From: Escarpia spicata
Lineage: Eukaryota; Annelida; Polychaeta; Sabellida; Siboglinidae
NCBI GenBank assembly: GCA_963995525.1
Contig: OZ023213.1
Location: forward strand, 49,686,592-49,750,591
Direction: 5' to 3'
DNA: 64,000 nucleotides
This document shows, one piece after another, positions 28,501-63,440 of this stretch. Position 1 is the first letter of the stretch, and the number at the start of each line of letters is the position of its first letter. The notes under the pieces were generated by a model. That model saw only the letters and a program-made list of their open reading frames with translations, was not told where the DNA came from and did not search any database. The position numbers were made by a program, and so were the translations under genes.

Positions 28501-31500
28501 CGTGTTTAAAAAAAATTGTTTTAATCAATACTTATTCCACCTTGCAAAAAATAACTCCCATTCCAAACTAGTTATCGGTTCCAACTTTTGAAGGAAAATT
28601 AAAATTCCAGTTTATTTTACATTGGAATCTCACTATTAAGGCCAACCTGAAGACTAGGCCAAAGTGACCTGAATAGCAAGGTGACCTTATTAATTAATTT
28701 CCTATACATGTACTTTACTGTTATGGAAATAATGTGGGACTGTCCCAGGGTGACCTTAATTGTGAGGTGGCTGTATTACAGAGATGACTGTAAAGTGAGG
28801 TTCTATTTGATTTGTACTTGAAAATGTAATGCATGATCATGATAGTGCATTATCATATTTATTCAGATACAATTAACAAAACCTATCTGCAGCAAAATTT
28901 CAGTTCCAATTCCGACTAACTTTTGAAAATCAATTCCAATTTCAGAATGAAATAGACCCAATGCCTGTTGAGGACTGTCAGGCCTCAACCGGAAACTTGC
29001 AAATAAAACAACAGTAATTTGATAACAAAACAAAATGGAGAAAAGGTCAAATTTTTAACAACACAAATCTGGGTGAGAATAATTGGAAGAGTGATGAGAC
29101 TAGACAAGGAAAGTATGGAGGAGGGGAGGGAATGTGTAATTCTGCAGTAGACACATGGCTGGCTGATTGATTGCCACGCGGCTGTCAAACAGCTGCCGAT
29201 ATAACAAATTTGTGATTTTCAGGCGGCAATAATTCAAAAGTAAAGAAAATTCCTCGGTACATCCACAGACAAATTTGTAGGTACGAAGTCTGTTGACTGC
29301 AAACTGAACAGCGATGTCAACAAGTGTTAAATTCTACGATTGCAATGCTATGTGCAGTCTGAAATAACATGCCACATTGCCACACGCCATACCAATGGTT
29401 TGTCGCACTCATCAGCATATACTCCAGTGATTTCACCAACATCTGACAAGCTTGTTGTTTTGTGACATGCAAATGACCACTTTTGGGCTGGCATAGTTCA
29501 GTTTGCAGTCAACATACTTAATATTTGACACATTACTTGACACGAGCTTTACTTTTATGTATACAAAGTTTCTAAGAAATTGTAAAATTGATTTCACTTT
29601 ACAAACACATGATACGTGTGTGTATGTGTGTATGCAGATAAAGGATCCCCAGAGGGAGGGGTACTGGAAGCAGTCGGAGCTGTTTGACAGTGAAGTCTAC
29701 CTCGAGGAGTTGTCCGATGTCCTGTGTATCGCCCAGGCTGAGCTTCCCAGTCTCCTGCCTATCACGCAGGTGGCCGAGGCCTTGCTGCACCTCCCTAATG
29801 GCACGTGGCTGCTGTGTCGCCTGGTCGCCAACGTCCCAGACGCCTTCCACAAGGGTACGTCTCTTCCTATTAACCCTTGCTCCACCTCCACAAGGGTATG
29901 CGTCTTCCTATTAACCCTGACCCTTGCGCCACCTCCACAAGGGTACGTCTCTTCCTATTAACCGTTGCTCCACCTCTAGAAGGGTATGTCTCTTCCTTAT
30001 TAACCCCTACTCCACCTCCACAAGGGTACGTCTCTTCCTTGCTCCACCTCCAGAAGGGTATGTCTCTTCCTATTAACTCTTGCTCCTCCTCCACAAGGGT
30101 ATGTCTCTTCCTATTAACCCTGACCGTTGCGCCACCTCCACAAGGGTATGTCCCTTCCTATTAACCCTTGCACCACCTCCAGAAGGGTATGTCTCTTCCT
30201 ATTAACTCTTGCTCCACCTCCAGAAGGGTATGTCTCTTCCTATTAACCCTTGCTCCTCCTCCACAAGGGTATGTCTCTTCCTATTAACCCTTGCTCCACC
30301 TCCACAAGGGTATGTCTCTTCCTATTAACCCTTGCTCCACCTCCACAAGGGTATGTCTCTTCCTATTAACCCTTGCTCCACCTCCACTAGGGTACGTCTC
30401 TTCCTATTAACCCTAACCCTTGCTCCACTTCCACAAGGGTACGTCGCTTCCTAATAACCTGAACCCCTGCTTCACCTCCACAAGGGTACGTTTCTTCCTA
30501 TTAACCCTTGCTTCACCTCCACAAGAGTATGTCTCTTCCTGTTATTTGCCAGAAACCCTAACAAAAACAGCAGTAAGAAGAATAACACACTGTTGCCAGA
30601 GCAAGTACTTGACTGTCAAAGAGCAGGTAACAGTGTCCAATGCAGTGTGCAATCTGATGGTAGTGTGTATCATTACGTTTCAGTCTGATTGTGGTGTGTT
30701 TCAGTCAGATTGTGATGTGTTTCAGTATATTTCAGTCAGATTGTGGTGTGTTTCAATATGTTTCAGTTTGATTGTGGTGTGTTTCAGTATGTTTCAATCT
30801 GATTGTGGTGTGTTTCAGTAAGTTTCAGTCTGATTGTGGTGTGTTTCAGTAAGTTTCAGTCTGATTGTGGTGTGTTTCGGTAAGTTTCAGTCTGATTGTG
30901 GTGTGTTTCAGTAAGTTTCAGTCTGATTGTGGTGTGTTTCAGTATGTTTCAATCAGATTGTGATGTGTTTCAGTATGTTTCAGTCTGATTGTGGTGTGTT
31001 TCAGTATGTTTCAATCTGATTGTGGTGTGTTTCAGTATGTTTCAGTCTGTTGGTGGTGTGTTTCAGTATGTTTCAGTCTGGTGGCGAATGCGGGAGAGAA
31101 GGAGGATGAAGGGCTGAGTGGGCAGAAGAGGGTGGAGGCCCTGAGGCGACTCTGCAACATCTGCCCCTCCCACGCTCTCACAGTACGCGCCCTCTGTGTA
31201 CGTATTCTTACCCCGTGCCCTCTGTGTACGTATTCTTACCCCGTGCCCTCTGTGTACGTATTCTTACCCAGTGCCCTCTGTGTACGTATTCTTATCCCGT
31301 GCCCTCTGTGTACGTATTCTTACCCCGTGCCCTCTGTGTACGTATTCTAACCCCGTGCCCTCTGTGTAAGTATTCTTACCCCGTGTCCTCTGTGTAAGTA
31401 TTCTTACCTCGTGCCCTCTGTGTAAGTATTCTTACCCCGTGCCCTCTGTGTAAGTATTCTTACCCCGTGCCCTCTGTGTAAGTATTCTTACCCCGTGCCC

Positions 31501-61090: not shown

Positions 61091-63440
61091 GTGGGTTAAT
61101 ACAGATACTACTGGAGAGTTGTCTACCCATGACACACACAGACAAGGTGGGTTAATGCAGATACTACTGGAGAGTTGTCTACCCATGACACACACAGACA
61201 AGGTGAGTTAATGCAGATACTACTGGAGAGTTGTCTACCCATGACACACACAGACAAGGTCGGTTAATACAGATACTACTGGAGAGTTGTCTACCCATGA
61301 CACACACAGACAAGGTCGGTTAATACAGATACTACAGGAGAGTTGTCTACCCATGACACACACAGACGAGGTCAGTTAATACATATACTACTGGAAAGTT
61401 GTCTACCCATGACACACACAGACAAGGTCAGTTAATACAGATACTACTGGAGAGTTGTCTACCCATGACACACACAGACAAGGTCAGTTAATACAGATAC
61501 TACTGGAGAGTTGTCTACCCATGACACACAAACAAGGTGGGTTAATACAGATCTACTGGAGAGTTGTCTTCCCATGACACACACAGACAAGGTCAGTTAA
61601 TACAAATACTACTGGAGAGTTGTCTACCCATGACACACACAGACAAGATCAGTTAATACAGATACTACTGGAGAGTTGTCTACCCATGACACACACAGAC
61701 AAGATCAGTTAATAAAGATACTACTGGAGAGTTGTCTACCCATGACACACACAGACAAGGTCGGTTAATATATATACTACTAGAGAGTTGTCTACCCATG
61801 ACACACACAGACAAGATCAGTTAATACAGATACTACTGGAGAGTTGTCTACGTATGACACACACAGACAAGGTGAGTTAATACAGATACTACTAGAGAGT
61901 TGTCTTCCCATGACACACACAGACAAGGTCAGTTAATATATATACTACTAGAGAGTTGTCTACCCATGACACACACAGACAAGGTCAGTTAATACATATA
62001 CTACTGGAGAGTTGTCTTCCCATGACACACACACAGACAATGTGGGTTAATGCAGATACTACTGGAGAGTTGTCTACCCATGACACACACAGACAAGGTG
62101 GGTTAATACAGATACTACTGGAGAGTTGTCTTCCCATGACACACACAGACAAGGTCAGTTAATACAGATACTCCTGGAAAGTTGTCTACCCATGACACAC
62201 ACAGACAAGGTCAGTTAATACAGATACTACTGGAGAGTTGTCTACCCATGACACACACAAACAAGGTGGGTTAATACAGATACTACTGGAGAGTTGTCTT
62301 CCCATGACACACAGACAAGGTGGGTTAATGCAGATACTACTGGAGAGTTGTCTACCCATGACACACACAGACAAGGTCAGTTAATACAGATACTACTGGA
62401 GAGTTGTCTACCCATGACACACACAGACAAGGTCAGTTAATATATATACTACTGGAGAGTTGTCTACCCATGACACACACAGACAAGGTCAGTTAATACA
62501 GATACTACTGGAGAGTTGTCTACCCATGACACACACAGACAAGGTCAGTTAATACAGATACTCCTGGAAAGTTGTCTACCCATGACACACACAGACAAGG
62601 TCAGTTAATACAGATACTACTGGAGAGTTGTCTACCCATGACACACACAAACAAGGTGGGTTAATACAGATACTACTGGAGAGTTGTCTTCCCATGACAC
62701 ACACAGACAAGATCAGTTAATACAGATACTACAGGAGAGTTGTCTTCCCATGAAACACACAGACAAGGTCAGTTAATACAGATACTACTGGAGAGTTGTC
62801 TACCCATGAAACACACTGACAAGGTCAGTTAATACAGATACTACTGGAGAGTTGTCTACCCATGACACACACAGACAAGGTCAGTTAATACAGATACTAC
62901 TGGAGAGTTGTCTACCCATGAAACACACTGACAAGGTCAGTTAATACAGATACTACTGGAGAGTTGTCTACCCATGAAACACACTGACAAGGTCAGTTAA
63001 TACAGATATTACTGGAGAGTTGTCTACCCATGACACACACAGACAAGGTCGGTTAATACAGATACTACTGGAGAGTTGTCTACCCATGACACACACAGAC
63101 AAGGTCAGTTAATACAGATACTACTGGAGAGTTGTCTACCCATGACACACACAGACAAGGTCGGTTAATACAGATACTACAGGAGAGTTGTCTTCCCATG
63201 ACACATGCAGACAAGGTGGGTTAATACAAATACTACTGGAGAGTTGTCTACCCATGACACACACAGACAAGGTCAGTTAATACAGATACTACAGGAGAGT
63301 TGTGTACCCATGACACACAGACAAGGTTGGTTAATACAGATACTACAGGAGAGTTGTCTTCCCATGACACATGCAGACAAGGTGGGTTAATACAAATACT
63401 ACTGGAGAGTTGTCTACCCATGACACACACAGACAAGGTG
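61046..63440 (+). repeat. Donor-site array after exon 18 (about 43 units of 56 bp)
   Basis: Each unit repeats the last 45 bases of exon 18 (coding IQILLESCLPMTHTDK) and the donor GTGGGT, GTCAGT, GTGAGT or GTCGGT followed by TAA. The first unit is the real exon end. Because TAA follows the donor in frame, reading past the first donor ends translation at once. Confidence 0.95.

Follow-up and report, generated by a model that had tools for sequence, protein, structure and literature searches.

The INTS2 gene of the tubeworm Escarpia spicata (Annelida, Siboglinidae) raises the question of why minisatellites should lie, again and again within a single gene, across the borders between exons and introns. 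The window analyzed here is a stretch of 64,000 nucleotides of contig OZ023213.1 (assembly GCA_963995525.1, positions 49,686,592 to 49,750,591 of the forward strand), and a sequence-only reading of it had described tandem copies at six 5' and three 3' splice junctions of INTS2; all nine places are also listed by Tandem Repeats Finder (TRF), with which the arrays of the window were called. The arrays are probably minisatellites of the type called “mirage” in amphioxus, here in a siboglinid tubeworm: on this most likely reading, duplications of a splice junction expand on the intron side, and the expansion is tolerated since it is the copy next to the exon that splicing retains. In 11 genes sampled from the same assembly, junction-crossing arrays were more than twice as frequent as random placement would give (24 against 10.3 expected).

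The nine crossing arrays of INTS2, all on the forward strand, lie at the 5' ends of introns 3, 4, 7, 8, 13, and 18 and at the 3' ends of introns 3, 8, and 14, have units of 11-66 bp, and in eight of nine cases include at least five exon bases. Intron 3 has an array at each end: a 41-bp unit in about 17 copies (29846..30544) includes nine exon bases, with the real donor following 29854, and a 31-bp unit in 14 copies (30653..31080) includes 14 exon bases, with the real acceptor before 31067. The 5' array of intron 4 (31189..32194) has 36 copies of a 28-bp unit with nine exon bases and the GT kept in 33 of the 36, while that of intron 7 (35959..36176) has five copies of a 44-bp unit with 37 exon bases. 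The exception in exon overlap is the marginal case at the 5' junction of intron 8 (38149..38180), with 2.9 copies of an 11-bp unit and one exon base. At the 3' end of that intron the main array (40918..41660) has 18.5 copies of a 40-bp unit and six exon bases, exon 9 starting at 41655, and a displaced piece about 1.57 kb upstream (39144..39348) shares 16 of 20 bases with the 3' junction of the intron. The 5' array of intron 13 (48385..50653) has 51 copies of a 44-bp unit, the GT being kept in 36 and the TRF boundaries including 42 exon bases; the 3' array of intron 14 (52206..52989) has 12 copies of a 66-bp unit, a multiple of three, and 13 exon bases; and the 5' array of intron 18 (61046..63439) has 43 copies of a 56-bp unit, 45 exon bases, and the GT kept in 39. 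As the sequence-only reading had said, the unit sequences differ among the nine arrays and the common factor is the splice junction. Other arrays come close and do not cross: a 19-bp unit in intron 5 (32831..33359) starts 18 bp into the intron, and a 32-bp unit in intron 7 (37808..38065) stops 12 bp short of the exon. A scan of the window with Rfam gave nothing at gathering score. Two further observations concern individual arrays. Positions 39349-40917 of intron 8, between the two array pieces, hold about 1.57 kb of other sequence, possibly an insertion into the array. The unit of the intron 13 array (48385-50653) ends in CTCACTCCTCAG immediately before the GT, so that each copy presents an acceptor-like sequence and then a donor, a layout that we take to resemble recursive splice sites.

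The exons were mapped by tblastn with human INTS2 as the query. Exons 1-18 of the gene (25293..61090, forward strand) lie in the window, past the end of which the gene extends, and their coding parts are at 25293-25576, 26215-26353, 29638-29854, 31067-31197, 32612-32812, 34632-34795, 35870-35995, 38078-38149, 41655-41769, 42818-42886, 43850-43984, 46830-47118, 48300-48426, 51430-51560, 52977-53193, 54197-54322, 59698-59782, and 60944-61090, respectively. The introns are of the GT-AG type (GT at 18 of 18 donors, AG at 17 of 17 acceptors), and the joined frame encodes 925 amino acids without stops. The identity of the gene is backed by PF14750 homologues and by the INTS2 chain 7cun_B of the PDB (E 1e-271). 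Among 120 listed public proteins the closest INTS2 is that of Ridgeia piscesae, likewise an annelid of the Siboglinidae, with 91% identity over 95% of the query, and the runner-up is that of Paralvinella with 59% identity; amphioxus was rejected as the source of the DNA on these identities. The predicted Ridgeia protein has its exons joined without array-encoded insertions as far as exon 17, where the prediction ends; it is a protein predicted for another species.

In each of the nine arrays it is the exon-proximal copy that yields the conserved INTS2 protein, and the exon-proximal site is probably the one used in the mRNA. The statement in the sequence-only reading that this copy is the real junction agrees with both frame and homology; one detail is corrected at the acceptor of intron 3, where exon 4 begins at 31067 and one further AG of the array follows downstream of the real one. 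In all nine arrays, splicing at the nearest decoy would either disrupt the reading frame or introduce a stop, and in the 3' array of intron 14 any of the first three decoys runs into a stop. The decoys retain much of their splice signals: GT is kept in 128 of 150 5' decoys, and 97 of the 150 equal or exceed the real site when 5' splice sites are scored with a frequency table. Across eight INTS2 arrays, GT and AG were neither specially lost nor specially kept relative to other positions of the unit, a degree of loss in intron 13 aside. The idea that decoy splice sites are purged was considered and rejected: of the eight arrays, only that of intron 13 varied most at GT or AG, and that in part.

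The strongest competitor to the mirage reading, though still an unlikely one, is plain chance: in introns rich in minisatellites some arrays must fall on junctions, with no preference for them. Arrays are indeed dense and occupy 42% of the intron sequence examined in INTS2. Placement was examined first in INTS2 itself, with non-overlapping TRF rows chosen by hand (period at least 10, score at least 50). When every array was given a random position within its intron, nine of 19 crossed against 1.35 expected (P about 1e-6), and without the marginal 5' array of intron 8 the same independent-placement null gave eight of 18 (P about 1.3e-5). A stricter null, in which all arrays of one intron were placed jointly, gave eight of 17 crossing against 2.1 expected for introns 1-17 (P=3e-4) and nine of 28 against 3.2 for 21 introns, including those beyond the window (P=2e-4). 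Because INTS2 had been singled out for its striking look, its P values make the excess seem stronger than it is, and further genes were sampled for that reason.

The chaperonin (CCT) genes, which were not selected for arrays, give a fairer estimate of the junction excess than INTS2. A PF00118 search of the assembly supplied the loci, nine of which were fetched (200 kb); the eight matching CCT genes were used, and the ninth, a multi-exon locus at C1:75024001 that matched no CCT well, was left out. Against human proteins 88 introns were solved, one unresolved CCT3 intron being dropped, and arrays were again called by TRF; small exons could have escaped detection, and an intron counted once might then really be two, as is likely for CCT7 6270-13045. 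Under joint placement eight of 46 CCT arrays cross against 4.4 expected (P=0.04), four of them in CCT2, two in CCT7, and one each in CCT4 and CCT6. Two cullins (CUL1 and CUL5) of five loci were also fetched, and seven of their 22 arrays cross against 2.8 expected (P=0.01), a sample that is biased because long open frames were part of the reason for choosing it. In CUL5 one intron, which had a GC donor and a low score gap, was dropped, and in CUL1 a protein match running into an array was replaced by a hand-set border and two introns were added by hand.

The sequence-only reading had proposed that repeat overlap with junctions be compared with random placement. Run on 136 introns of 11 genes holding 96 arrays, this comparison finds 24 crossing arrays against 10.3 expected under joint placement, a count reached in 0 of 20000 simulations. 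The 24 arrays, to which INTS2 contributes nine, lie in seven of the 11 genes (INTS2, CCT2, CCT4, CCT6, CCT7, CUL1, and CUL5), 14 of them at a 5' junction and 10 at a 3' one, with units of 11-138 bp and copy numbers from 2.0 to 479. Without the cullins, INTS2 and the CCT genes together have 16 of 63 crossing against 6.4 expected (P=5e-5), INTS2 itself being ascertained. A test independent of array edges asked whether an array holds at least 15 of 20 bases around its own intron's junction, with the junctions of other introns as the null; 26 of the 96 arrays do, against 0.31 expected, and five of the 26 have no contact with the junction and represent displaced copies, the one in INTS2 intron 8 among them. 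For the CCT genes alone the figure is 11 of 46, and the crossing null reaches 11 in 0.07% of runs, although the two measures are not identical. The joint result is difficult to reconcile with chance, even if the CCT genes alone offer only eight against 4.4. Crossing arrays are thus about 1.8 (CCT) to 2.8 (INTS2) times as frequent as random placement would give. The excess may come from a mutational bias or from a survival bias, the two being inseparable here.

Several results weigh against the mirage reading or narrow it. The CCT excess is modest: when at least five exon bases are required it falls to seven against 3.9 expected (P=0.07), half of the eight cases are in CCT2 and none in CCT1, 3, 5, or 8, one reaches only 2 bp across the junction, and another depends on a CCT7 intron that is itself uncertain (donor 6269, score gap 4.2). 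In intron 4 of INTS2 the real 5' site is equalled or outscored by 32 of its 35 decoys, because of which site strength alone cannot explain the correct choice. The use of a decoy is also not always barred by frame, because the third decoy is in frame and free of stops, at nominal multiples of the unit, in four of the nine arrays (introns 4, 8 at the 5' end, and 13, and intron 3 at the 3' end). Finally, in 105 introns the per-position density of array copies shows at junctions no peak over that of intron interiors, a point that also favors chance; from almost nothing at about 40-65 bp into the exon, density climbs to the intron level. Because that peak is lacking, junctions are not a sharp hot spot, and a hot spot peaking at the junction was ruled out as a candidate by this profile. 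The sequence-only reading had suggested either a process that duplicates junction DNA or growth that is tolerated only there. Its first part is consistent with the excess over random placement, but growth confined to junctions finds no support in the same profile or in the 72 of 96 arrays that do not cross. Junctions are therefore moderately over-represented as array sites, being neither a sharp hot spot nor the only place of growth.

An alternative still less favored than chance is that the arrays are functional, their repeated signals recruiting U1 or SR proteins and strengthening exon definition, or their in-frame decoys varying the protein. The retention of GT or AG in most decoys could be taken in this sense, but these positions are not consistently better kept than others in the eight INTS2 arrays, and the nearest INTS2 decoy would disrupt or truncate the reading frame in every array. 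A case that could be read in this way is in CUL1, where an array across a 5' splice site (5420-21225 of the CUL1 locus, reverse strand) has 479 copies of a 33-bp unit over 15.8 kb of a 16.9-kb intron. Its first copy lies on the real 5' splice site, the array is in frame with the exon, and an open frame of 2512 amino acids was reported at the locus; however, a 198-amino acid peptide from the array had no match among 7996 scored public proteins, the candidates being limited to 0.55-1.75 times its length. Unit length is divisible by three in nine of the 24 crossing arrays, but this is near the third expected by chance. Border tandem repeats in human duplicated genes can alter splicing and form novel introns, according to the available parts of PMC2812944, which would allow for some function here as well. 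That the arrays were inflated or misplaced by the assembler is very improbable: the draft amphioxus genome appeared aberrantly assembled at the mirage of BflGb6 (PMC3087553, available in part), but here the copies of seven arrays are mutually diverged (mean pairwise identity 0.86-0.96), the pattern recurs in seven of 11 genes, the contigs being 52-90 Mb long, and similar lancelet structures appear in the accessible portions of separate papers (PMC3087553, PMC3902484).

If the arrays are of the mirage kind, they may have originated when a short tandem duplication covered a splice junction by chance. Slippage or unequal exchange would then multiply the unit toward the intron, from two copies to hundreds. 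Because the copy next to the exon would stay joined to the body of the exon and be the one spliced, the rest, each carrying a piece of exon and a splice signal, would remain intronic decoys whose growth is nearly neutral; both the mode of duplication and the neutrality are what we infer. Copies near the exon are more like the real copy, the rank correlation being negative in six of seven arrays tested (of the nine in INTS2), with P<0.01 in two. Junction arrays of 2.0-2.2 copies are present in CUL1 and CCT7, and these look like the first step of growth. Outside INTS2, positions 1-6858 and 7597-15324 of the window form a 7.6-kb tandem duplication with about 98% identity between its halves. A 40-bp array has 20.6 copies in one half and 42.6 in the other, which is indirect evidence that array length changes quickly in the Escarpia genome.

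The name “mirage” reportedly goes back to the minisatellites of amphioxus Adh described by Canestro and colleagues in 2002, a study known here through citations. The available parts of later papers describe mirages in the amphioxus globins BflGb6 and BflGb9 (PMC3087553) and in PGBD5, with TnC cited alongside (PMC3902484). Published units are 10-72 bp in Adh and 150-160 bp in the globins (PMC3087553), and lancelet mirages leave splicing undisturbed, as these texts state from RT-PCR or by citation (PMC3087553, PMC3902484). The border minisatellites that the sequence-only reading had mentioned for amphioxus are therefore correct as literature, the host here being an annelid. As far as these portions go, the INTS2, CCT, and cullin arrays are alike in having units that span the exon-intron border at both 5' and 3' sides and vary from gene to gene, with the real junction at the exon and a splice signal in many but not all copies (as with the GT of the INTS2 5' decoys). 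The unit lengths, both in INTS2 and in all 24 arrays, also fall within the reported range. Unlike the lancelet examples described under that name, the host is an annelid, which is a difference of distribution rather than of structure; nine arrays occur in one gene and 24 in seven of 11 genes, with up to 479 copies, and the excess over random placement has been measured. A literature search, outside which most subscription journals lie, found in the text available to it no mirage by name outside lancelets and no earlier annelid report. The tubeworm arrays are a real feature of the mirage kind in a phylum for which no earlier report was found.

Related structures are described elsewhere, again in sources available in part. 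In human genes within segmental duplications, minisatellites lie at exon-intron borders and some form novel introns (PMC2812944); units of about 30 bp repeated at such borders are a likeness to the tubeworm, whereas the human repeats are in exons or make novel introns in recent paralogs and the tubeworm arrays are on the intron side of conserved genes (for which paralogs were not searched). The human cases therefore point to a wider kind that is not confined to lancelets. In the Rogers model, which has been applied to the globins, introns are gained by tandem duplication of AG/GT proto-splice sites (PMC3087553). The duplicated splice signals at a border are similar, but in the tubeworm existing introns lengthen and no new intron is shown. 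Introns of earthworm metallothionein genes also carry minisatellites (PMC12783039), which are alike in being intronic and from an annelid, although no junction-spanning repeats are described in the accessible part of that paper.

The occurrence of such arrays in several conserved genes of one annelid genome means that the process either arises repeatedly or is widespread and has been overlooked. The arrays provide natural test cases for the spliceosome's choice of the first splice site where dozens of equal ones are present, and for the lengthening of introns or their birth from duplicated borders. A broader proposal, tentative and rather doubtful, is that a genome-wide process in tubeworms, independent of that in lancelets, seeds minisatellites preferentially at junctions, that the repeated copying of exon borders accounts for a considerable part of intron growth, and that some arrays, such as the in-frame 479-copy array of CUL1, might occasionally be spliced in to give variable proteins or new exons.

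Some minor observations were made elsewhere in the window and the assembly. Open frames at 17384-20550 of the window resemble the reverse transcriptase of non-LTR retrotransposons and include SGVPQGSVLGP and FADDT, which we take to be reverse transcriptase motifs. A full-length intronless chaperonin with an open frame of 549 amino acids lies at C974:38794-40302, perhaps on a bacterial contig within the assembly. A fragment of the Adaptin_N domain (profile about 279-335, usually with one TGA) accounts for more than 50 of 84 Adaptin_N matches, on many contigs; on C6 (e.g., C6:13818606-14265366) the fragments are spaced about 60-70 kb apart, as an amplified gene fragment.

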